DNA of 64,000 bases, from the NCBI GenBank assembly GCA_029259355.1, contig JAPDIZ010000004.1:62001-126000 (forward strand). Reading direction: 5' to 3'. Source of the DNA: Candidatus Bathyarchaeota archaeon. GTDB taxonomy: Archaea; Thermoproteota; Bathyarchaeia; JAPDIZ01. The position numbers were made by a program, and so were the translations under genes. Below, in pieces: positions 13,053 to 64,000 of the stretch (the first letter of the stretch is position 1; each line of letters opens with the position of its first letter). The notes beneath the pieces are model-generated. The model had not been told where the DNA came from. It worked only from the letters and a program-made list of their open reading frames with translations, and searched no databases.

Positions 13053-14768
13053 ATGGTTTTAGTTGTTGCTGAAAAGCCATCGGTGGCTAGGTCTATTAGG
13101 AAGGCGATAAATGGAGACTTCAAAGCAGTTGCTCTCAGTGGCCACATACTCGACGTAGACTTTCCGCGAGAGTATGAGAGCTGGTGGAAGACTGACCCAA
13201 AAGACCTCTTCAACGCACCAGTTAGGTGGGTGGTTAGGGATAGGAAGGCGTATAGGGAGCTGGTCGAAGCTCTTAGGGAGCACGGAGACCTCATCGTGCT
13301 TGCAACAGACAATGACCACGAGGGCGAGCTCATCGCTTACGAGGTTCTCTTGATAGCCAAGGACATCTTGGGCAAGGCTAGGTATGCTAGGATGAGGTTC
13401 AACTCCACCACACCTCGTGAACTCAAGAAGGCTTGGGAAAACCTTGAGCCAGACCTTAACTGGGGATGGGTTTGGAAAGCGCAGTTTAGGAGAATGTTCG
13501 ACCTAGTTACGGGTGCAGCCTACACAAGGCTACTAACCACTTCAGCAAGGAGAGCTGGAGAAGACGTTAAGCTGATCTCTTGGGGAAGCTGCCAAACGCC
13601 CACGCTTTGGTTTGTTTCGGAGAGGGAGAAGCAGATCAGAGAGTTCAAGCCCCAAACCTACTACACCATAGAAGCTACTGTGCTCGTAGATGGCGTCGAG
13701 GTAAGGGTTTCTTCGCCAACCATGAAGAACGAGGAAGAGGCTAAGAAGCTCTTCGAGAAAGCTAGGGAGGCTGACCGCGCAGAGGTGACTTCTTTTGGCG
13801 TTGAGCAGGAGGTTGAGCGAAGGCCGCTTCCAACAGACACAGACTCTATGCTCCAAGACCTCGCCAAAGCTCTTGGGCTAAGCGCTTCCAAGATAATGGC
13901 TTTGGCTGAGGAACTCTACGCAGACGGCTACATATCCTACCCAAGGACAGAGACTAATCAGTGGATTGGGGTAAACCACAGATGGGTTTTGGAGATGCTT
14001 AAAAACTCCCACCTATCGAACTTGGTAAAGCTTGACTCCATCAACCCCAGAAGCGGCTCAAAAAACGATGGAGCACACCCACCCATACACCCAACTCAGC
14101 CATACCCACACCAAGACCTCAAGGCAAGGGTTTGGGAATACGTCGCCCGCAGGTATTTGGCGAACGTGGTGTATGGAGACGCGGTTTTCAACCGCTGGAG
14201 GCTTTCGGTTAGCTTGGGGGGCGTAGAGCTGGGCGCATCCAACAGGTACTTCGTAGACGAGGGCTTCTACCAAGTGTTTCCATACTTTAGGCCAAAGCAG
14301 CTCCTATGGATACCCGAGGCAAGGCTTGGGCAGCTCTTACCCGTAAAAGACGTTGAGCTAGCTAAGAAGAAGACCAAGCCTCCTCCACACCTAACCGAAG
14401 CTGAGCTTCTGAGGCTTTTGGAGGCTCACGGAATAGGAACAGACGCTACGAGGCACGAATATCCCTCGATCATTGTGAGGAGGGGGTATGCGGAGAAGAG
14501 GGGGAAGTCGTTTAGAATCACGGAGCTTGGAGAGCTGCTGATGAACTTGTTGGCTAACGTAGATCAAAGGCTGGTTACGCCAGAGACTAGGAAGCACGTC
14601 GAAGAGATGATGAAGAGGGTTGAGAAGGGGGAGCTGACCATGGAGGAAGCGCTTAAGCAATCCCTACAGATTTACGAAGAGCTATTTGCCGAGTTGGAGT
14701 CTGCGCTTAGGGGAAACGAGAAGGTTTGGGTTAGGGAGAGAAGAGCACCTGAACACCAGCGGCTTTAG
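13053..14768 (+). CDS. topA: Type IA DNA topoisomerase without zinc fingers
   Basis: 571 residues. The Toprim domain is at the N-terminus: LVVAEKPSVARSI with Glu7, and ATDNDHEGELIA with Asp86 and Asp88. The catalytic tyrosine is Tyr296 in GYISYPRTET. The C-terminal half has the EAELLRLLEAHGIGTDATRHEYPSIIV region typical of the IA toroid. The zinc-finger tail found in many archaeal TopA proteins is absent, so the enzyme is a topoisomerase III-like core that relaxes negative supercoils or resolves crossovers. Variation: TDND in place of the usual TDPD. No reverse gyrase helicase domain is fused. A TATA-like GTTATATG lies near 12980. ATG start. Confidence 0.92.
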   Translation: MVLVVAEKPSVARSIRKAINGDFKAVALSGHILDVDFPREYESWWKTDPKDLFNAPVRWVVRDRKAYRELVEALREHGDLIVLATDNDHEGELIAYEVLLIAKDILGKARYARMRFNSTTPRELKKAWENLEPDLNWGWVWKAQFRRMFDLVTGAAYTRLLTTSARRAGEDVKLISWGSCQTPTLWFVSEREKQIREFKPQTYYTIEATVLVDGVEVRVSSPTMKNEEEAKKLFEKAREADRAEVTSFGVEQEVERRPLPTDTDSMLQDLAKALGLSASKIMALAEELYADGYISYPRTETNQWIGVNHRWVLEMLKNSHLSNLVKLDSINPRSGSKNDGAHPPIHPTQPYPHQDLKARVWEYVARRYLANVVYGDAVFNRWRLSVSLGGVELGASNRYFVDEGFYQVFPYFRPKQLLWIPEARLGQLLPVKDVELAKKKTKPPPHLTEAELLRLLEAHGIGTDATRHEYPSIIVRRGYAEKRGKSFRITELGELLMNLLANVDQRLVTPETRKHVEEMMKRVEKGELTMEEALKQSLQIYEELFAELESALRGNEKVWVRERRAPEHQRL

Positions 14769-35235: not shown

Positions 35236-35718
35236 TTACTTCTTCGAAACAGCGGTGCTGAGGACCAAAACGATGCCTGAGGCAGCCATCAGAGCAGCTC
35301 CACCCCCCATAGACAGCCCAGTGCCCAACACCAAGGTTGCGCTGGTGGTGCAGTAGAGGAGGAGTGGAGGGATAAGAGCTAATAAACCCGCTGCAACCAC
35401 GGTGCTCTTGCTTCGCCTGAAGTAGCCCGCTACAGCCAGTAGCAGTGCGAGCACCCAAAACCATGACACCAACGCAGCGCACACCAGCGCTCTCCTACAA
35501 GCTGCGACCCACGCCTCAAACCCCTCTCCCAATTCCAGAGGATATGAGGCTATACCTAGATGGGTTATGAAGTATAGAGCGTTGAGTCCCTTCGCTGAAG
35601 CATACCCCAGCACCGAGATTCTAACAAAGGGTAGGAAGCCAGACGCTCCGAGGAGGAGGATTCCCAAAACCACGATCCAAGTTGGAGACCACTTCTCCTG
35701 CTTCGACAAACCAACCAC
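35236..35718 (-). CDS. Four-helix membrane protein
   Basis: 160 residues with hydrophobic helices at about 14-30, 72-97, 105-120 and 128-156. No signature. Its downstream end is 3 nt from the convergent zinc-ribbon gene. Could be cotranscribed with the CFI-box gene, which ends 61 nt upstream. Confidence 0.55.
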   Translation of the reverse strand: MVGLSKQEKWSPTWIVVLGILLLGASGFLPFVRISVLGYASAKGLNALYFITHLGIASYPLELGEGFEAWVAACRRALVCAALVSWFWVLALLLAVAGYFRRSKSTVVAAGLLALIPPLLLYCTTSATLVLGTGLSMGGGAALMAASGIVLVLSTAVSKK

Positions 35719-35779: not shown

Positions 35780-37309
35780 CTAAAATGCGGCTCGGGCCAA
35801 GCGCTTCGCCACAGGATAGCCGATCTTGACGAGGGCTCTTATGGCTGCTGCAACAAAACCCCATCGCCCCACGTAGTCAACCAAGTATCTGCTCACCCAG
35901 TAGTAGGAGTCTACAACGAGTTCGCCAATTCTGGTTTGGAGGAGGAAAGCATCTCTAAACGCTCTCAGCGCCTCCAGCTCCTCCGCCTCCCGGTAGCCGT
36001 AGGCTGCTGTAGCCAGCACACACCTCCTCTTTTTGATGCCCAAGCGCTTGAGCTCTTCAGAAGACGCTTTGGAAACTTCTAGGTCTTTGGAGAGCTTGTA
36101 AACCCCCATCCCCCTAACCTCGAAGTAGTACATTCCTCTTCGCTCTATCACCCAAGAAACTCTACGCGGCCGAAACCTCCTCCTCAGATACTCCCTAGCC
36201 AATTCGATGCCGTCTTTGAGGCTTTTTCGCTTAACCGAGATCTGAGCATCTCTGGGGTGTAGCGAAAAAACAGCTTCCCCCAGCAACCCCTCCACCCACA
36301 CCTCCACCTCATCCCCAAGCGCCTTGATCGAAGCCTTCGACGGTGGGTCACCGTAGAAAATAGACCTATACCTATTCCTCGCGTCTGCTAAGAGCTGGCT
36401 TGGCTCTACCCTGAGCCTCAGCATTCCCTGCCTACACCCACCAAACTTGCTTAGCGTTATGAGATACTTCGGCGATGGGCCGACGACGAAGGAGGCGTAT
36501 CCCTCTCCCTGATCTATCAGCTCAGCCTCTGCTCGCACAACCTGCTTGGGCTGCTTGCCCAACGCTCTATCTATGAAGTCGTCCCAGCTTCTCCTAACCC
36601 CTTCTTCAGGAGCTTCCTCCACCAAAGCATATTCGAGGTAGAGTTCCCTAGCTCTCTCTTCGAGTTCTCTCGTGCTCATCGGCTCTAAGCCCCAAGCTAT
36701 TCCGAAGCAGTCGTCTACCCATAGAGTGTGGGTGGAGCCGCATACGTCGAGGGTTAGCCTCCAGAGGGCAGCTACCCAAACCTCCTCTCTATACAGCACC
36801 TCCACATCTCGTCTAGAAACCCTAAGCCCTTTAGCGACGTGCTCCTCAACCGCCCTCACCAAAGACCTAACCTCTCTCTTCTTGGCTTCGTAAGCCCTCA
36901 CCAAGCACTCGACGCCCAACAATGCCTCAACCTTTGGTCGCTCAATCTCGGCGTATTCGCCGATAGGCTGCACCACAAGCTCCTTTCGCGAAACAGTCTC
37001 TCTTGCGCTCTTTGTGGAGGGCTGGAGGGTTTCGAGGTCGAGCACAAGGCCTCTGGGTGGTTGAGCGTCTGAGGGCGGCTTGAAGGCTATGTGGAGGCCG
37101 CTTCTGCGAACGCTTCTGCGAACCCTACCCCGCCTATCCCTCCAAACCTTGTTAACCGACCAAGAAACTCTTACGCCTCTCTGAACTATTGCGGTTAGCG
37201 CGACAGCTTCTACGTCCTCCGATTGCGTGAGCTCCCTGACCCAGTTGATTAGGTTTTCGAAGGTTCTTGGCCTTAGCTTGGAGTAAAAGCTCGATACAGA
37301 TCTGGACAA
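35780..37309 (-). CDS. CFI-box C-terminal-domain protein paired with BrxL
   Basis: 509 residues. The C-terminus, from Cys430, reads CVLATAAYGYREAEELEALRAFRDAFLLQTRIGELVVDSYY and ends in a hydrophobic segment. This is the CFI-box tail (CFIATAAYG..., YY), a small conserved C-terminal domain of unknown role found on many unrelated proteins. The first 100 residues include a basic arm (RDRRGRVRRSVRRSGLHIAF), and the centre is alpha/beta with no family I recognise. Six nt separate it from the BrxL-like gene, so both are made together. A role as the effector or membrane anchor of a BrxL machine is a guess. Confidence 0.75.
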   Translation of the reverse strand: MSRSVSSFYSKLRPRTFENLINWVRELTQSEDVEAVALTAIVQRGVRVSWSVNKVWRDRRGRVRRSVRRSGLHIAFKPPSDAQPPRGLVLDLETLQPSTKSARETVSRKELVVQPIGEYAEIERPKVEALLGVECLVRAYEAKKREVRSLVRAVEEHVAKGLRVSRRDVEVLYREEVWVAALWRLTLDVCGSTHTLWVDDCFGIAWGLEPMSTRELEERARELYLEYALVEEAPEEGVRRSWDDFIDRALGKQPKQVVRAEAELIDQGEGYASFVVGPSPKYLITLSKFGGCRQGMLRLRVEPSQLLADARNRYRSIFYGDPPSKASIKALGDEVEVWVEGLLGEAVFSLHPRDAQISVKRKSLKDGIELAREYLRRRFRPRRVSWVIERRGMYYFEVRGMGVYKLSKDLEVSKASSEELKRLGIKKRRCVLATAAYGYREAEELEALRAFRDAFLLQTRIGELVVDSYYWVSRYLVDYVGRWGFVAAAIRALVKIGYPVAKRLARAAF

Positions 37310-37315
37310 AAGTTT

Positions 37316-38734
37316 CTAGCCCCATATCCTAAAGCCCAGCTTTTTCTTGGGGAACTCGCCTGGGGATAGCTCGTGGAGCCAGTCCGCTACTCTCTGCCTC
37401 ACCTCCACAGCTAGCTCCATTACTTCTTGAAGCTCGCTTCGAGTAAACTCGCCGTGTGGGTAGAGAAGCTTCAGCAACCCGCTTGCGACCTTCCTAATTC
37501 CCCTCTCATCCCTGATGGTGGTTGGTCCCTCAAACTCCACGTGCTCATCTACGAACCTTCCGTAGTCGCGCTTCCTAAGCTCGTGCATGATTTCGGCGAA
37601 GTAGTCGGATGCGAACCCGTAGTCGTTTGATAGGTGTAGGCGGGACTTCATTATCTTGGGAAGCTCCCACCCCGGAATCAAGCCGTGTATTCTGTCGATG
37701 AAGGCTGAGTCCCTCATGAAGGGTGGAAGGATGTCGCTTAGGGATTCGGCAGGCGCTCTTCCACTCACCTCTATGTTGCCCATGAAAACTAAGGAGCAGG
37801 TGCTGTGGGCTCGCTTGAGGATTCCGCGCTCGAAGAACCCATCCACCATGTAGTCCTTTAGCTTCCCCATCATCTCGTCAGGCTCTGAGAAGTTTATCTT
37901 GGATATCTCGTCAAAGACTATGCAGTCCCTTATCCCAACCTCACCGATGGTTCTGTGTAGCCCGTGGTAGAAGAGCACGGCTGGGCTGACCTTACCTCCC
38001 GAGAAGATCCTTGTGTAGTAGGAGATGTTTCTGTAGAGGTAGGTTTTTCCCGTTGCTCTTGGGCCGAGCTCAAACATGTTGGAGTTTGCCTCAACCAAGG
38101 GGACAAGCCTAAGTAGGAGCAGCATCCTAGACCTTCTGTCGTATACCTCTGGGTTTAGGCCCAAGGTGTTTATCAACACGCATACCCACTCATCTGTGGT
38201 GAACTCGTGCCTACCCTCGATAAACTCGTCCAAGTTGACGTTCGAAACCTGAAAAGGCTCAAAATTCACCACAACAGCTACCCCTTCTCCAGATCTCAGG
38301 GCTCTATACTCTAGCCTAACAAGCCCCCACATACCCGAGCGGAGGAGGTTTTCGTATTTCTCGAGCAAGCGCTCGTCGATTTGGGCATCAGTTATTCTAA
38401 CGCAGGGTATCTGAGCTTTGTGAGTGCCTGACTTGATGTCGGTTTCCACCTTAACCTCGTCGATTAGAGTAGCCGATCCCCTGGTCATGAGGTCGTGGAG
38501 AATCTTGTCCTTGTCCTTTGGGTCGGGGTGGTGTCGGCTTATGAACTCATCTAGCTTAGCTAGCTCCTCCTCAGTAGGCTCTTCGCTGCAGAACTTAGTC
38601 ACTAAATACTCCCCTATGTACCTCGGGAGCCTGCTAACCTCCTTTAGTCTAGCTAACCTCTTGTTTACGACTTTGTCGGAGAACAGCTGCCTCAGCTTGT
38701 AGCTAGCAACTTGTGAAACCGACACCTGCTCCAC
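37316..38734 (-). CDS. brxL: BrxL-like AAA+ protein, short form without Lon protease domain
   Basis: 472 residues. The N-terminus LPRYIGEYLVTKFCSEEP, the FTTDEWVCVLINTLGLNPEVYDRRSRMLLL region and RLVPLVEANSNMFELGPRATGKTYLYRNISYYT are the BREX BrxL pattern; Walker A is 224-231 (GPRATGKT), Walker B 271-276 (CIVFDE). SLVFMGNIEVSG and DRIHGLIPGWELPK follow. Full-length BrxL proteins have a Lon-type protease domain after this; here the chain ends LSPGEFPKKKLGFRIWG, so it is a short form. In BREX, BrxL is a DNA-dependent ATPase. Here it is alone with a CFI-box gene and no pglZ, brxC or pglX. Own promoter at 38763. Confidence 0.88.
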   Translation of the reverse strand: MEQVSVSQVASYKLRQLFSDKVVNKRLARLKEVSRLPRYIGEYLVTKFCSEEPTEEELAKLDEFISRHHPDPKDKDKILHDLMTRGSATLIDEVKVETDIKSGTHKAQIPCVRITDAQIDERLLEKYENLLRSGMWGLVRLEYRALRSGEGVAVVVNFEPFQVSNVNLDEFIEGRHEFTTDEWVCVLINTLGLNPEVYDRRSRMLLLLRLVPLVEANSNMFELGPRATGKTYLYRNISYYTRIFSGGKVSPAVLFYHGLHRTIGEVGIRDCIVFDEISKINFSEPDEMMGKLKDYMVDGFFERGILKRAHSTCSLVFMGNIEVSGRAPAESLSDILPPFMRDSAFIDRIHGLIPGWELPKIMKSRLHLSNDYGFASDYFAEIMHELRKRDYGRFVDEHVEFEGPTTIRDERGIRKVASGLLKLLYPHGEFTRSELQEVMELAVEVRQRVADWLHELSPGEFPKKKLGFRIWG

Positions 38735-38762: not shown

Positions 38763-38772
38763 CGATAAATTC
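38763..38772 (-). promoter_or_regulatory. Box A of the brxL/CFI-box pair
   Basis: On the minus strand the sequence reads GAATTTATCG. Its centre is about 26 nt before 38742, and the first brxL codon (GTG) is at 38734, so the leader would be very short. Confidence 0.45.
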
Positions 38773-58071: not shown

Positions 58072-60075
58072 CTACTGGATAATCCTCGACGCACCCTCCT
58101 CAATGCTCACCTCTATAATGTTGTCAGCATCCTCTACCCCGAGACTGTGGTGAGTCACCAGTATTACTTGCCCAACCTCCTTAGAAAGCCTAGCGATGTG
58201 GGAGAGGAGCTGAGGCAGGTTTTCCTCGTCTACGCCGTAGGTGGGCTCATCCATTATCAAGAGGTGCCTGTAGTTCAAGACCTGAAGCATAGCCAGCCTA
58301 AGCGCAAGCGAGATAAGCGTTCGGTGCCCACCACCCACTCTAGTCGCTGGAATAGCTTCTCCCAAGCTGGGGGTTGAGACGTAGACTTGGTAGGTCTCTG
58401 GGTCTATGCGGAAGGCGTTGTAGATGCGCTGGTCAGTCATGCGCTCGTATATCGCGAGAGCGCGCTGCGCTATGCGCTCAAGCCTCCTTCGCCTAACCTC
58501 TTCCACCACAGCATCGAGCCTCTCCACAAGCTCCTTCGCTAAATCAGCCATAGCCTTCCTCTTCTCCAAGGCCTTGATGGCTTCGTCGATTTCTCTAAGC
58601 TGCTTCTGATGCTTCTCAACCTCAGCCTCCTTCTCCACAAGCTCCTTCCTCTTCTCCTCGAGCTCCTTCTTCTTGCGGTCGAGCTGAGCGGGGTCTAATG
58701 GAAAGTTCTGAGCTAGCTTGGCTTGGAGCTCCACGTCCCCGGGGCTGTAGTCCAAGCCAAGTTCAGCTAATCCCTCGCCGATCTTCAAGACAACGTCTCG
58801 CTTCCTGCTCTCCGCAGACTTCTTTTCCTCCAGAATCCTCTTGACCGAGGTGCACGCTCGCTTGATCGAGGAGGAGGTTTGCTCAAGGCTCACCTTCTTC
58901 CTCCTCAGATCATCGAGCTTTTTCCTAACCTCTTCACGAACTCTTCTGCAGCTCTCCTCCTTTTCTCGAAGCTTAGAGAGCTCATTTTCTTCGCTGGATA
59001 TAAGGGATAGCAGTATCAGCGGAGAGATTTTCTGACCACACGTTGGGCAGAGAGCTTCTTTCTCGCTCCTCTTCAGCAGGTCTTGGTGGGTGGTGAGCTG
59101 CTTTTGGACGCGCTGCAGCTCCCCCTTTATCCTAGTGTACTCCTCCTCTACCAAGCTCTCCTGCTTCGAAGCCTCCTCTATCTGCTTCAACACCTCAGCA
59201 AGCTCTTGCTGAGTCTTCGCCAGCAAAGCCTCAGCCTCTTCTGGAGAGGAGCAGCCCACCACTGAGAGCTCAGCCCTAACCCTCTGCTCAAGCCCCTCCA
59301 GCTCTCTGCTGAGGCGATCCCTATCCCTCACCAGCGAGAGAAGCTGCCGAAGCGCAGGAGACTTAGCCTTCTCTACGAGCTCTTGGAGCTGGCTCACCTC
59401 TTTGCGCAGCTTCTCTAAGTAGCTAGTAAAGTTTGAGATCATCTCCTCGCGTAGCTTCCTCTGTTCTTTTTTCTGCGCTAGCAGCGTAGCTACGTCCATT
59501 CCCTCGTATTTCCCAAGCTCTTGCCTCGCTCTATCCAGCTGATGCCTAATCTCTCGCAGAGTAGTTATGCCTAGAATTGAGTCCATCCGCTCTTTTTTAG
59601 GGGCCAGTATGGACTCCAGCTTCCCCTGCTCGATGTATACGAGGTCCATGAACCTCCTTTGAGAAAGCCCCAGCTCCTCGATCACCTTAGCCCTAGCCTC
59701 TTCCTTCCCAGATACTGGAGCTGACTTCCCGTTTACCCTGAGGGCGATCTTGGTGGTTCTAAAGCTGTTTCCTTCAAGCCTTCCGGAGCGAAGGATTTCG
59801 ACTACGTTGCCCGTTACAGGGCTTCTAAACCTCACGTAAACCTCCATTGACCTGCTAGCTCGAGAAGCCCTCGACACTAGCATTGAGGGAGTTACTCCAG
59901 GAACATCACCGTAGAGCCCATAGACGAGCGCTTCGAGGAGCGTGGATTTTCCCACAGAGTTTCTTCCGCGAATCAGGTTTAGCCCAGGCGAGAAGAGGGC
60001 CTTCTGGGGCTTTGGCCCCCAATACCCCATGAAGTTGGACAGCCTAATCTCCTCAATTACGCTGCTCATGCTCAA
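58072..60075 (-). CDS. rad50: Rad50 ATPase
   Basis: 667 residues. Walker A NLIRGRNSVGKSTLLEAL (G37-S44), a coiled coil with the zinc hook CPTCG at Cys343/Cys346, and C-terminal LLIMDEPTYGVDEENL (Walker B) with the signature-like RVGGGHRTLISLALRLAML. The coiled coil is shorter than in typical Rad50 (850-880 residues). It overlaps mre11 by 23 nt. Works with Mre11 on DNA ends. Confidence 0.96.
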   Translation of the reverse strand: MSMSSVIEEIRLSNFMGYWGPKPQKALFSPGLNLIRGRNSVGKSTLLEALVYGLYGDVPGVTPSMLVSRASRASRSMEVYVRFRSPVTGNVVEILRSGRLEGNSFRTTKIALRVNGKSAPVSGKEEARAKVIEELGLSQRRFMDLVYIEQGKLESILAPKKERMDSILGITTLREIRHQLDRARQELGKYEGMDVATLLAQKKEQRKLREEMISNFTSYLEKLRKEVSQLQELVEKAKSPALRQLLSLVRDRDRLSRELEGLEQRVRAELSVVGCSSPEEAEALLAKTQQELAEVLKQIEEASKQESLVEEEYTRIKGELQRVQKQLTTHQDLLKRSEKEALCPTCGQKISPLILLSLISSEENELSKLREKEESCRRVREEVRKKLDDLRRKKVSLEQTSSSIKRACTSVKRILEEKKSAESRKRDVVLKIGEGLAELGLDYSPGDVELQAKLAQNFPLDPAQLDRKKKELEEKRKELVEKEAEVEKHQKQLREIDEAIKALEKRKAMADLAKELVERLDAVVEEVRRRRLERIAQRALAIYERMTDQRIYNAFRIDPETYQVYVSTPSLGEAIPATRVGGGHRTLISLALRLAMLQVLNYRHLLIMDEPTYGVDEENLPQLLSHIARLSKEVGQVILVTHHSLGVEDADNIIEVSIEEGASRIIQ

Positions 60076-61348
60076 CAGCCTCTTCCAAAATCTTCACCCA
60101 CCTTTTGACGAAGGGGTCACGGTCTCTATCGGTTAACAAGCCTGTAGCTGTGCTAGCGCGCTCGTCTAGGACTACCTCGACATCAGAAACGAGCTTCATA
60201 GCTTCAGGCACAAGCTCACCCAGCGGGCTAAACGCTTCTTGGAGAAAGCTAGACTTTTCGGGGACGGCGGGGAGCGCTAGCTCCCTCGAAACAGGGCTTG
60301 CTCTGCAATCCACCTCTACGTAGAGCAACCCCTTCTCGCCCACATGCTTGAAGGCCTCTCTCTCAACAGCTACGCGGAGGTCTATATCGTCTCCATCTAC
60401 TCTCCCATCCAGCACCACTCTCAGAATCCCATCGGCTTCGGAGAATTTGAGCTGCTCAGCAAAGCTCCTAACTTCTGCTAACGCTTTTTCTACAAAGCGT
60501 TGAATACCCCAAACCGCTCCCTCGCTAGAGACCTTAACAGACTTGATGAGCTGCAGAGGCTTTAGCTCAACGAATCGGAGGCTTTGAAGCGCGCCCCCCT
60601 CAACCTCTGCTATGTAGACGCCGAAGGGCCCTTTGTCCCCGAGGTCTATGGCGTCCGTCCCTCCTGGGGTGAGCAGAACGCTTCCGCCTTTCTCGGCTGG
60701 GTCCAGGTGTCCATGGTAGTGCCCACACACCACGAGATCTGCTCCAACGCTTAGGGCTTGAGAAGCTGATATGGTCGAGTATTCAGGCGTTCCCGGGGGG
60801 ATAGGGTGGTGTCCCTCTACAAAGGCGTGGAGGAGTAGGACCTTGAAGCTTCCTCGGCTAAGAGCCTTTTTGATTGAATCGGCTTTTTCGCTAAACGTCT
60901 TTTTGGCGAAGGGGGTGTAGCCCAAGCCTGCTACACAGATTTGTTGGTCGAAGAAGGTGGAGATGCCTCCGTCCTCATCCTCGCCCACAACGTGGAAGTA
61001 CTCTGCAAGAGGGTGCCATACGTAGTCTAAGGCGCTATTCTCCGACGTTCCATCATGATTTCCCCTAACCACCACAATGTTAACTCGCTTGCGGTATAGC
61101 TCAGATATGGCGTCTATCAGCCGCTGAAGCTCCTTCTTAACAAAGGCGGTGTCCTCAGGCCTCATAGACCTTCGTTCAAAGAGATCTCCGCTGTGAAGCA
61201 CGTAGTCAACGCCTTCTCTTATGAACACGTCTATGGCTTGGGAAAAGGCGTGTTTAAAAGCCGCCCTCCTCTTGTCTCCAACAACTCTTGGGATGCTTCT
61301 ACCCACGTGGGTGTCGCTAAAAATCCCTATCTTGAAGGATTCCCCCAC
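60053..61348 (-). CDS. mre11: Mre11 nuclease
   Basis: 431 residues. Phosphoesterase motifs: FSDTHVG, LHSGDLFERRS, VVRGNHDGT, VLLLHAFVEGHH, VVCGHYHGHLD. Mn-dependent endo/exonuclease of the MR complex. ATG start, 4 nt after herA. Confidence 0.97.
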   Translation of the reverse strand: MGESFKIGIFSDTHVGRSIPRVVGDKRRAAFKHAFSQAIDVFIREGVDYVLHSGDLFERRSMRPEDTAFVKKELQRLIDAISELYRKRVNIVVVRGNHDGTSENSALDYVWHPLAEYFHVVGEDEDGGISTFFDQQICVAGLGYTPFAKKTFSEKADSIKKALSRGSFKVLLLHAFVEGHHPIPPGTPEYSTISASQALSVGADLVVCGHYHGHLDPAEKGGSVLLTPGGTDAIDLGDKGPFGVYIAEVEGGALQSLRFVELKPLQLIKSVKVSSEGAVWGIQRFVEKALAEVRSFAEQLKFSEADGILRVVLDGRVDGDDIDLRVAVEREAFKHVGEKGLLYVEVDCRASPVSRELALPAVPEKSSFLQEAFSPLGELVPEAMKLVSDVEVVLDERASTATGLLTDRDRDPFVKRWVKILEEAVEHEQRN

Positions 61349-61352
61349 TCAG

Positions 61353-62906
61353 CTACCACCTCTCCCTATCAAAGGATTCCACAGCCTCCATGATCACGCT
61401 GTTCGCCTCCAAAAGCCTAGGGGTGATTCCTCGGTGGACGGTGGCTCTTGGAAGCGTCTTGATCTGCGCTGGGAGGGGGACGAAGGGACCCACCAAAACC
61501 GCTTCTCCTTGGTTTAGGCTTGGGAGATCCTCTATCAGCCTATGGCTGAAGCTTTCGCTTGCGCTCTCTATCATCAGCTGGTCTTGGCGGTTCACTATCC
61601 TGAGCACAGCGTAATTGCCTATGTTGGCCATGATGTCTGGGCTTATGCTCCTTGGCCGCTGGCTTATGAGAGCAAGGTGTAGCCCAAACTTAGCTCCTTC
61701 GCGTATAGCAGTCGATATAGCTCTCGTCGCGTACTTGCTTCTCTCGGTGGATGCGACTCGATGAGCTTCTTCGATGAAGAGGAAGGTGGGCGGAGCCTTC
61801 ACCCAGTCGCCTTGGTGCTTCACCATGTGCCTAAAGACTAGGTCTACGACAAGGCCTGTGTAGACATCTTGCATCCTATCGGGCAAACCCCTTAGGCATA
61901 TCACGCTCAAGGTCTTTGGCCTAAGCAGATCAGATATCGGCGTAGACTCTGGGGGAAGGTCTATGTCCTCCCCCATGTCCTCAAGCCTCATGAGCAGAGA
62001 GCTCAGCCTCTTCTTCCTGTCAGAGGATTTCTCTCCCTCAAGCTCCTCCTCAAGCCTAGAGATGACATCGGCTAGCCCAAACGGCTTGTTCTCCTTCCTA
62101 AGCTCCTTGATCACCTTCCTAAGCTCGTATACCTGTAGAGGTCCCAAAGCCCCCAAGAGCTCTGCCATAGCCTGAGAAGAAACCTGCTCCAAGCTTATCT
62201 TAAGCTCCCGAGTCTCTGCCGTTATGCCGGGAATCTTGGGTGCCTTGGGTGGGTAGTAGACCACTACGTCGAAGTCGCTGTGCTTTTTCCCATCCCACCT
62301 CTGATCCATCATCACATAGTCTCCGTGTATGTCCACAACCACCACGGGGAAGTAGGTGTTGAGCAGTATCTCCTCCATGAACTTCCCAGCGAGGTAGCTT
62401 TTGCCCGCTCTCGTCTGAGCAAATATGCCTAGGTGGAATTGGAGGTCTTGGAGGTGTATGGGGACCCTTACGTTTGGCCTATGTATCAGGCTGCCGACAA
62501 AGACGGGTAATCTGGGCTCGTCTCCCGAGAAGAACTGGCCCAAAACTTCGTCGCTAGCTCTGTAAACAGGAGTGCCGGGGCGGGGCGCTGACTTTGGCCT
62601 CAGCATCCTTCCGTTCTCCAAGTAGCCGAGTACCTCAGCTCCAGCAACCTGGTACTCGTACTTCCTCGCGTAGTCGGGTGAGAGGGGGAGCGTTTGGGAA
62701 AGCCCCTCTCGAGCAAGAGGGCTTTTTGCGCCAAGCCTAACCACCTCAGCTAAAACATCAACCCTCTTGCTCCCCTCGGGAACGAGCTCCTCAACTGAAA
62801 CCAGCACGTACTCGTGGAGAGCCATGGCCAAGCCTCTATCAACTTGAAACTCGAAGTAGTTTGGAGTAGATTCGCCGATGACATCGCCTACTCGCTCAAG
62901 CTCCAA
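61353..62906 (-). CDS. herA: HerA bidirectional DNA helicase
   Basis: 517 residues. HAS-barrel N-terminus (ELERVGDVIGEST...), Walker A IFAQTRAGKSYLAGKF (162-176), Walker B TFLFIEEAHRVAS, then AISTAIREGAKFGLHLALISQRPRSISPDIMANIGNYAVLRI (sensor/arginine finger). FtsK/HerA hexameric translocase that resects ends with NurA. ATG start, 3 nt after nurA. Confidence 0.97.
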   Translation of the reverse strand: MELERVGDVIGESTPNYFEFQVDRGLAMALHEYVLVSVEELVPEGSKRVDVLAEVVRLGAKSPLAREGLSQTLPLSPDYARKYEYQVAGAEVLGYLENGRMLRPKSAPRPGTPVYRASDEVLGQFFSGDEPRLPVFVGSLIHRPNVRVPIHLQDLQFHLGIFAQTRAGKSYLAGKFMEEILLNTYFPVVVVDIHGDYVMMDQRWDGKKHSDFDVVVYYPPKAPKIPGITAETRELKISLEQVSSQAMAELLGALGPLQVYELRKVIKELRKENKPFGLADVISRLEEELEGEKSSDRKKRLSSLLMRLEDMGEDIDLPPESTPISDLLRPKTLSVICLRGLPDRMQDVYTGLVVDLVFRHMVKHQGDWVKAPPTFLFIEEAHRVASTERSKYATRAISTAIREGAKFGLHLALISQRPRSISPDIMANIGNYAVLRIVNRQDQLMIESASESFSHRLIEDLPSLNQGEAVLVGPFVPLPAQIKTLPRATVHRGITPRLLEANSVIMEAVESFDRERW

Positions 62907-62909
62907 GCC

Positions 62910-64000
62910 CTACACCCTCCTCAGAACCCTATCCCTAAGCTCCCTCCGCCTAACAGATACGTCGTAGCCCATGCTCCTAAGCTCGTCGAGAATAAGCCTC
63001 TCAATAATCTCCACATACTCAAACCGCTTGATACGAGCTACCTCATCGACCTCAACCAAAGGCCTTATGAAGACGGGGTCTTCCCCCAAGCCGTTTAGTA
63101 CGCTGAGCAGCTCCTCAAGCGAGGGCTTCCACCTCTCTCCTGGGAAAAACACGTTTTCCACAATATCTCCCCATGATGGGCCGTCGTATCCCAGAGCAGT
63201 GGAGGGGATGTCTACTCGAAAAGCGTTAGTAGATCCCGGAGGCTTCCAGTAAGTTATCGCGACTGGCGGCAGCGAGTAGAGCTCGTCGAGAGCACTGACT
63301 AGGCGTAGCAGCTCAGCTCCCACAAGCCTCTTCCTAAACTCTGATTCTCCCCAGCTTCTGGCGGGGTATACGTAGAGGGTTATGGGGGAAAGGATGAGGG
63401 GCGTGGTGTAGCCTGGGGTGTGCGTCATCGATGAGTAGACGTATTCGTCGCTTATGGGGTGCTCCAGCTCCTCGAGTAGGCTCTCAACACCCTCTAAGTC
63501 GCTTCCCAAGATCTCCCTAATCCTCTTCACCACTTTGTGGGGCTTGCGATACTTCCTCCTCAAATCGTAAGCATATTCTTCGCCGATGGTTGGCTTAGCC
63601 CTCAGCAGCTTATCTATCAACAGCTTGCTCCTCAAGTAGCTTACGCGGCTATCCTTAGAAACGCCTAAAGCCACCAAAGAGCCTTCACAACACATCCTCA
63701 AGAGCTTAGACAGCTCCTCCAAAGCCTTGCTCAAAACATCTTGCTCGCGCTCAAGCCACCCGATGTGATGTCGGTAGACAGGATAAAGCGATCCATCTAG
63801 GATCGCGAGGACGCGCTCTACTCCCCGCTGTTTGAGCAACTCCTCAACAACTCTTCTAAGAAGCTCAAGCTCAACTGCTTTGCAGAAGAGCCCTGGGGAA
63901 ACCGCGTCGTCTCTCGCCAAAAACCTGTACTCAGTTATGGGCTCAAAATCCTTTACGCCGTATACGTGAGCAACCGCTCTTACACAAACCACTGAAATCC
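62910..64000 (-). CDS. nurA: NurA nuclease, 5' end outside the window
   Basis: The visible 363 residues hold most of the NurA fold: VERVLAILDGSLYPVYR with a catalytic Asp, the helical LRSKLLIDKLLRAKP region, and the C-terminal VAITYWKPPGSTNAFRVDIP and VFIRPLVEVDEVARI. The open frame continues past 64000 (SVVCVRAVAH), and the first Asp-containing motif of the family, usually about 60 residues before, is missing, so the start lies beyond the window. Confidence 0.95.
   Translation of the reverse strand, partial: ISVVCVRAVAHVYGVKDFEPITEYRFLARDDAVSPGLFCKAVELELLRRVVEELLKQRGVERVLAILDGSLYPVYRHHIGWLEREQDVLSKALEELSKLLRMCCEGSLVALGVSKDSRVSYLRSKLLIDKLLRAKPTIGEEYAYDLRRKYRKPHKVVKRIREILGSDLEGVESLLEELEHPISDEYVYSSMTHTPGYTTPLILSPITLYVYPARSWGESEFRKRLVGAELLRLVSALDELYSLPPVAITYWKPPGSTNAFRVDIPSTALGYDGPSWGDIVENVFFPGERWKPSLEELLSVLNGLGEDPVFIRPLVEVDEVARIKRFEYVEIIERLILDELRSMGYDVSVRRRELRDRVLRRV

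Follow-up and report, generated by a model that had tools for sequence, protein, structure and literature searches.

What does a BrxL protein do when the other components of a bacteriophage exclusion (BREX) system are missing around it? The question is raised by a pair of genes in a 64,000-nucleotide stretch of DNA from Candidatus Bathyarchaeota archaeon (GenBank assembly GCA_029259355.1, contig JAPDIZ010000004.1, positions 62,001 to 126,000 of the forward strand), referred to here as the window, in a genome that is 95% complete and comprises 9 contigs. On the minus strand, a BrxL gene (37316-38734, GTG start, 472 amino acids, aa) is followed after 6 nucleotides (nt) by a gene for a 509-aa protein (35780-37309, TTG start), hereafter the partner; the coordinates, lengths and spacing given in an earlier note on this DNA were re-derived exactly. 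That note had proposed a stand-alone system in which BrxL is paired with a protein ending in a CFI-box. We regard a two-gene, BREX-independent module of a short BrxL and a PepSY-like partner as the best explanation of the locus, with about as much to be said for it as against it; that the pair is a real module with a partner family of this kind is quite probable, and a DNA-directed defence mechanism for it is a tentative idea.

The evidence for a dedicated partner comes from four other archaeal loci in which a short BrxL is likewise followed directly by a gene for a protein of 403-573 aa: Pyrodictiaceae archaeon S141_63 (locus L129; 544 aa, gap 6 nt), Thermoproteota archaeon S9B2_HD70 (L131; 573 aa, gap 1 nt), Desulfurococcales archaeon A1 (L148; 545 aa, gap -10 nt; the BrxL of this genome appears split across contigs L145 and L148) and Thermoproteota archaeon B15_G15 (L137; 403 aa, gap -4 nt). 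Judged from their sequences, these four partners from three lineages (Pyrodictiaceae/Desulfurococcales, S9B2_HD70 and B15_G15) are one fast-evolving family: in phmmer comparisons of the five sequences those of L129, L131 and L148 match one another at E<1e-24, and those of L137 and L148 at E 8e-7 and 2e-5 in the two directions. A profile of the four, built without the window protein, was run with hmmsearch against 1024 real open reading frames (ORFs), 2000 shuffled copies of the window protein and the reversed ORFs; the window protein was the first non-member (E 0.0047, or 0.0041 for a 482-aa piece; next 0.27), and the stretch covered by the profile corresponds to its residues 175-291 (36437-36787, minus strand). 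The hhalign comparison among 594 proteins likewise placed it as the first non-member (score 44.6, E 5.3e-5, 126 columns; next score 29.1). The region common to the window protein and the family is the body of the protein and not the CFI-box. The proposal that the window protein is a remote member of this BrxL-adjacent family is thus supported but not proven, and the idea of a BREX-free BrxL with its own partner gene stands in so far as one family follows BrxL in three other lineages, though not with the CFI-box as the feature of the pairing.

In the order of genome G381 a strong partner match was found in 3 of 197 genomes: G381 and G579 have BrxL immediately before the partner, whereas in G582 the contig ends inside the partner gene; in the order of G373 only G373 itself, among 4 genomes, gave a match. 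A two-row profile run over 398 genomes of the phylum returned the two known partners and four weak matches, and a five-row profile that included the window protein matched only the window's own genome among 343. No match to the 509-aa protein was found in plasmid records, and none in the PDB with either the four-partner profile or the 509-aa protein itself. We found no description of a BrxL with a PepSY-like partner in the open-licence literature; PepSY domains in archaea are treated in PMC4158269 and PMC6393860, the available portions of which make no mention of BrxL.

The label "PepSY-like" is a working one, chosen because the L131 partner (the same protein as L066) exceeds the Pfam cut-off for PepSY (PF03413; 30.9 bits, cut-off 24) and because of the repeat pattern. 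The L129 partner was modeled with a predicted local distance difference test (pLDDT) score of 82.6 as tandem units of one helix plus four strands, and the AlphaFold2 model of the window partner has the same order of elements, with predicted helix-plus-strand units at residues ~259-410 (36080-36535, minus strand) and ten-residue blocks of mean pLDDT 61-80 over residues 261-370, lower beyond. Unlike the L066/L131 protein, the window protein has no Pfam family above cut-off, PepSY included, and the remaining partners yielded no curated PepSY match in Pfam scans. The fold search with the window model gave no match at E<=0.001, its first row being 3u1w, which we take to be a PepSY-like protein. With the L129 model, Foldseek reported 254 matches at E<=0.001, of which the 50 listed have a root-mean-square deviation (rmsd) >30 Å and a template-modelling score <=0.13 to the query and are largely propeller-bearing; VIA-align rows covered mainly residues 253-491, with the best Z of 8.4 to Nup133 (rmsd 2.9, 100 aligned) and a Z of 5.5 to 3u1w (rmsd 19.8). 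We took these rows to reflect a common beta-meander arrangement and drew no fold assignment from them. That the body of the window partner consists of PepSY-like helix-plus-strand repeats is, on balance, supported but not proven.

The CFI-box itself is genuine: NF041770 matches residues 430-494 of the 509 (35828-36022, minus strand) with 58.8 bits against a curated cut-off of 40, near the C-terminus as the earlier note had it, and thus exceeds the cut-off in the manner of the CFI-box-CTERM proteins. The window protein matched those of the phylum only via residues 365-502. By a simple hydropathy measure, 27 of 29 of them (several cut by contig ends) have at least one strongly hydrophobic stretch, whereas the window protein has none even at a lower threshold. 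The window genome contains no second NF041770 match at E<=0.01, and the four other partners show no NCBIfam match at E<=1. For a wider comparison, 88 BrxL loci were reduced to 71 distinct ones at 98% BrxL identity, a set that includes long BrxLs and fragments; the partner-bearing L148 was dropped from it and counted from the partner comparisons, L145 with the other half of its BrxL being retained. Among the 71 the CFI-box occurs at the window only, and a profile made from the window tail and the 29 phylum ORFs found no other in 3316 ORFs of the remaining loci; many of the loci end at contig ends, so that neighbours beyond view are possible. With 0 of the 70 other loci showing it in the available DNA, the CFI-box is ruled out as a conserved feature of the partner, and under the refuting condition that the earlier note itself had set, its proposed pairing of BrxL with a CFI-box protein fails. 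It looks like an accessory C-terminal tail, seen in the window member only.

The upstream protein is a BrxL by all tests applied. TIGR02688 matches its residues 15-457 with 517.9 bits (cut-off 329.3), Pfam identifies BrxL_N and BrxL_ATPase, and both the Walker A motif GPRATGK and D275-E276 are invariant in 9 aligned rows. The Walker-B residue E276 aligns to E280 of the solved BrxL 8EMC, the residue altered in the ATPase mutant described in PMC10164562. The alignment covers residues 13-463 of the 679 of 8EMC and therefore implies that the C-terminal (Lon/HKD) domain is absent. The N-terminal domain and the AAA+ ATPase, aligned over residues 14-461, are common to the window protein and the Type 1 BREX BrxL of Acinetobacter (PDB 8EMC/8EMH), which differs in having the C-terminal domain; around the window pair, moreover, no BREX operon was found. 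The missing domain noted earlier is hence real, but the short form as such is already known, since BrxL of Type 4 BREX lacks C-terminal extensions according to the accessible text of PMC12839542. What sets the window apart from Type 4 is the lack of any PglZ match in its genome. Searches of viral contigs with the BrxL alignment gave 184 pattern matches and no relative; 318 plasmid records matched BrxL, none at >=60% identity, and 9 of 10 among the matches listed are annotated brxL.

As regards the rest of BREX, the scan of 20 further, larger ORFs of the window with PADLOC models (not every ORF was scanned) gave no BREX match at E<=1e-5, BrxC included, and agrees with the earlier statement that no other BREX gene lies nearby; for BrxA, BrxB and BrxC no genome-wide model search was made. 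Genome-wide, PglZ (PF08665) had 0 matches at E<=0.01. PglX/BrxX carries an Eco57I domain, and the Eco57I methylase family (PF07669) also had 0 matches in the genome, where no PglX model was run. A related locus lies on another contig (C1, L170:8198-13863), where the gene of a DUF499 ATPase (1005 aa) adjoins that of a DUF1156-type methyltransferase (883 aa), with other genes present but no BrxL match; DUF499 is thus not part of the window locus. We consider the contig C1 genes to be components of a BREX-related (BR) system without BrxL, in the sense given to the term in the available text of PMC12839542.

The surroundings of the pair differ between lineages. In the window, family matches confirm the flanking modules named in the earlier note, VapBC being next to BrxL and HEPN/MNT beyond the partner. 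VapC is encoded on the same strand as BrxL and ends just 64 nt upstream of it, whereas HEPN/MNT is separated from the pair by the gene of a 160-aa hydrophobic protein and by a 219-aa gene. L137 is alike, with a PIN toxin and a MazE-like antitoxin on the BrxL side and HepT/MNT starting 188 nt after the partner. Used as queries, the toxin-antitoxin proteins matched only in the window, in L137 and in three loci with PIN at least 5 kb away, a search of limited sensitivity. Two genera represent the Pyrodictiaceae/Desulfurococcales lineage, where a cysS-like gene neighbours BrxL (immediately in L130 and L145, two genes away in L129) and an alpha/beta-hydrolase-like gene comes after the partner, both genes being named by eye. 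In L131 a dCTP deaminase-like gene comes after the partner, and upstream there is an S-adenosylmethionine (AdoMet) decarboxylase gene. The context thus points to surroundings rich in toxin-antitoxin genes in two lineages and to stable ones in two others.

Several results weigh against a BrxL-partner module, and some of them speak for a rival view, in which the 509-aa protein is an unrelated gene that came to lie behind BrxL by chance in this lineage and the BrxL is a relic of a decayed BREX-like system. The single-sequence comparisons of the window partner are weak: phmmer searches with it recovered no other sequence, either from the neighbour genes of the first loci (E<=1) or from the set of five partners (E<=10), BLASTP gave E 0.11 for the L066/L131 partner and 0.005-0.009 for those of L129 and L137, phmmer --max ranked an ORF of L119 first (0.0055) and L137 second (0.15), and a two-row profile gave the window partner E 0.011. 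A further match in G579, a weak one (1.3e-4), is not next to BrxL and falls in an unrelated-looking ORF, and the four weak matches of the phylum search (E 3e-4 to 0.009) sit in genomes without a BrxL match. The model of the window partner is poor, with an overall pLDDT of 46.6, and was built on the same alignment; the profile of the L129 repeats, which recovers the L129 repeats themselves and, weakly, some in L148 (best 3.7e-6), finds none of note in the window protein. At L136, the BrxL of which is sister to that of L137, the next ORF is truncated where the contig ends and shows no detectable similarity; the likeness of this 136-aa ORF to the window N-terminus was seen by eye, was unsupported by BLAST and was dropped. 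Nor does the BrxL tree unite the pairs: L129, L130, L131, L136 and L137 group weakly (70/55), and a single clade of these with the window BrxL, which is 54-56% identical to its nearest relatives, was rejected by the approximately unbiased test (p-AU 0.016). The pair may have arisen repeatedly, or there may have been exchange of BrxL and partner. The first of the two trees had 33 rows; the second had 48 of the 71 and omitted fragments, long BrxLs except L104 and L105, and the distant L110. To this may be added the CFI-box pairing confined to the window and the many short BrxLs with other neighbours. Nonetheless we consider chance and decay unlikely: as a short form the BrxL is complete and its ATPase motifs are intact, the 6-nt spacing is tight, and profile comparison picks the BrxL-adjacent gene from among 594 and 1024 proteins.

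Two further explanations were weighed. The BrxL could serve in trans the DUF499/DUF1156 system of contig C1, a view favoured by the very presence of these genes in the genome and by L113 and L141, where BrxL stands directly with DUF499; we regard it as very unlikely, since BrxL is absent from Type-1 BR systems as outlined in the accessible text of PMC12839542 (ATPase, methyltransferase and helicase), since the contig C1 locus yielded no PglZ-like gene with phmmer, and since the window pair carries a promoter-like box of its own, BrxL being followed by a dedicated gene. Alternatively, the pair could be domesticated for DNA maintenance, such as repair, replication restart or help with recombination, instead of defence. 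The housekeeping-like neighbours in two lineages (L131 and that of L129, partly named by eye) count against a defence role and fit this well, as do 7 of the 71 loci, from a Thermofilum group, in which BrxL stands behind another small gene with no match to BREX-type queries within 8 kb; the patchy occurrence of BrxL, found by TIGR02688 in 30 of the 398 sampled genomes of the phylum (26 above cut-off), and the toxin-antitoxin flanks at the window and L137 fit it poorly. We judge maintenance somewhat unlikely and take it as the main rival of a defence role for the BrxL-partner module.

How such a module might work can be sketched by analogy. According to the available part of PMC10164562, BrxL of Acinetobacter uses ATP to assemble on double-stranded DNA, and two of its rings are joined through the C-terminal domain; the role of BrxL within BREX is described as open in the parts of PMC10164562 and PMC12707154 at hand. 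By analogy, the short BrxL would form single ATP-dependent rings on double-stranded DNA, and the partner, made in close ratio with BrxL, would dock on the ring. It could possibly replace the missing ring-joining domain or gate the loading, and would license or restrain the ring. The most likely use would be the exclusion or disposal of foreign or damaged DNA. Target choice is probably not made by BREX methylation, because the genome has no PglZ and no Eco57I-type methylase match, an argument beside which the DUF1156-type methyltransferase on the other contig must be set. We speculate, with considerable reserve, that the pair is a compact archaeal system against mobile elements, in which a BrxL ring acts without PglZ, BrxC and BREX methylation, a PepSY-repeat partner targets or licenses it, and tails such as the CFI-box can be swapped. 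If true, two genes would make up a very small system for studying how the BrxL ring acts on DNA and what triggers it, and BrxL would be a general DNA-clamping module to which different systems supply different partners.

The survey of archaeal BrxL loci gives this last thought a broader basis. TIGR02688 matches 11 of 256 genomes of the class, and a contig scan with nine BrxLs returned 50 loci. In 15 of the 71 distinct loci the gene of an Eco57I-type methyltransferase ends <=~10 nt upstream of BrxL or overlaps it (L061, L064, L067, L069, L070, L071, L104, L105, L118, L121, L133, L140 and L155, and, as pieces, L075 and L077), 12 of these genes encoding 1219-1279 aa, that of L105 856 aa at a contig end, and those of L075 and L077 being shorter pieces. 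The Eco57I-type N6 methyltransferase and BrxL are a recurring two-gene pair in archaea; in L104 and L105 the BrxL is longer (632 and 646 aa). Further BrxL loci have DUF499 or DUF1156 genes. In all, many archaeal short BrxLs have other partners and BrxL therefore behaves as a reusable module, which suggests that it is such a module rather than a BREX-only part; the available text of PMC12839542 places BrxL only in BREX Types 1 and 4.

Some of these loci show additional features. In L113 and L141 a DUF499-type ATPase gene is followed by BrxL and then by a protein of ~300 aa, with a DUF1156-type methyltransferase on the opposite strand; the ~300-aa protein of L113 has a weak PglZ match (11.5 bits, cut-off 25). 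In L075 the short BrxL, with the methyltransferase piece upstream, is followed by a NOV_C-domain protein, and the counterpart in L077 is related and cut by the contig end. The 7 loci with a gene of one other family directly upstream of BrxL all come from one genus-level group, assigned to Thermofilum by its named copies, the queries without a match within 8 kb being those for methylase, DUF499, PglZ, BrxC and DUF1156. The upstream proteins of this group (L079-L084, L087, L135 and L138) have 248-294 aa and are hydrophobic by eye; two that were scanned gave no Pfam match above cut-off. The C-terminal end NRI(E/D)RLL is found in 6 of the 7 compared, and a conserved tail beside BrxL suggests a docking peptide.

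The remaining features of the window concern transcription and neighbouring genes. A box A-like AATTTAT (38765-38771, minus strand) ~31 nt upstream of the BrxL GTG bears out, as judged by eye, the earlier statement that the pair has its own box A. The 160-aa protein with hydrophobic stretches (35236-35718) lies 61 nt downstream of the partner; a TTTAAGG-like box of its own, seen by eye, indicates that it is probably a separate transcription unit. The Rfam search of the window gave no match. At 58072-63992 a gene with LmuB/PbeC-type PADLOC matches and a HerA-like gene are separated and followed by unmatched genes; the former is presumably Rad50-like, and we assume the region to be probably an archaeal HerA-NurA-Mre11-Rad50 operon. 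Finally, a 571-aa protein encoded at 13053-14768 has an N-terminal match (1.4e-18) to DpdF, a defence-related model.

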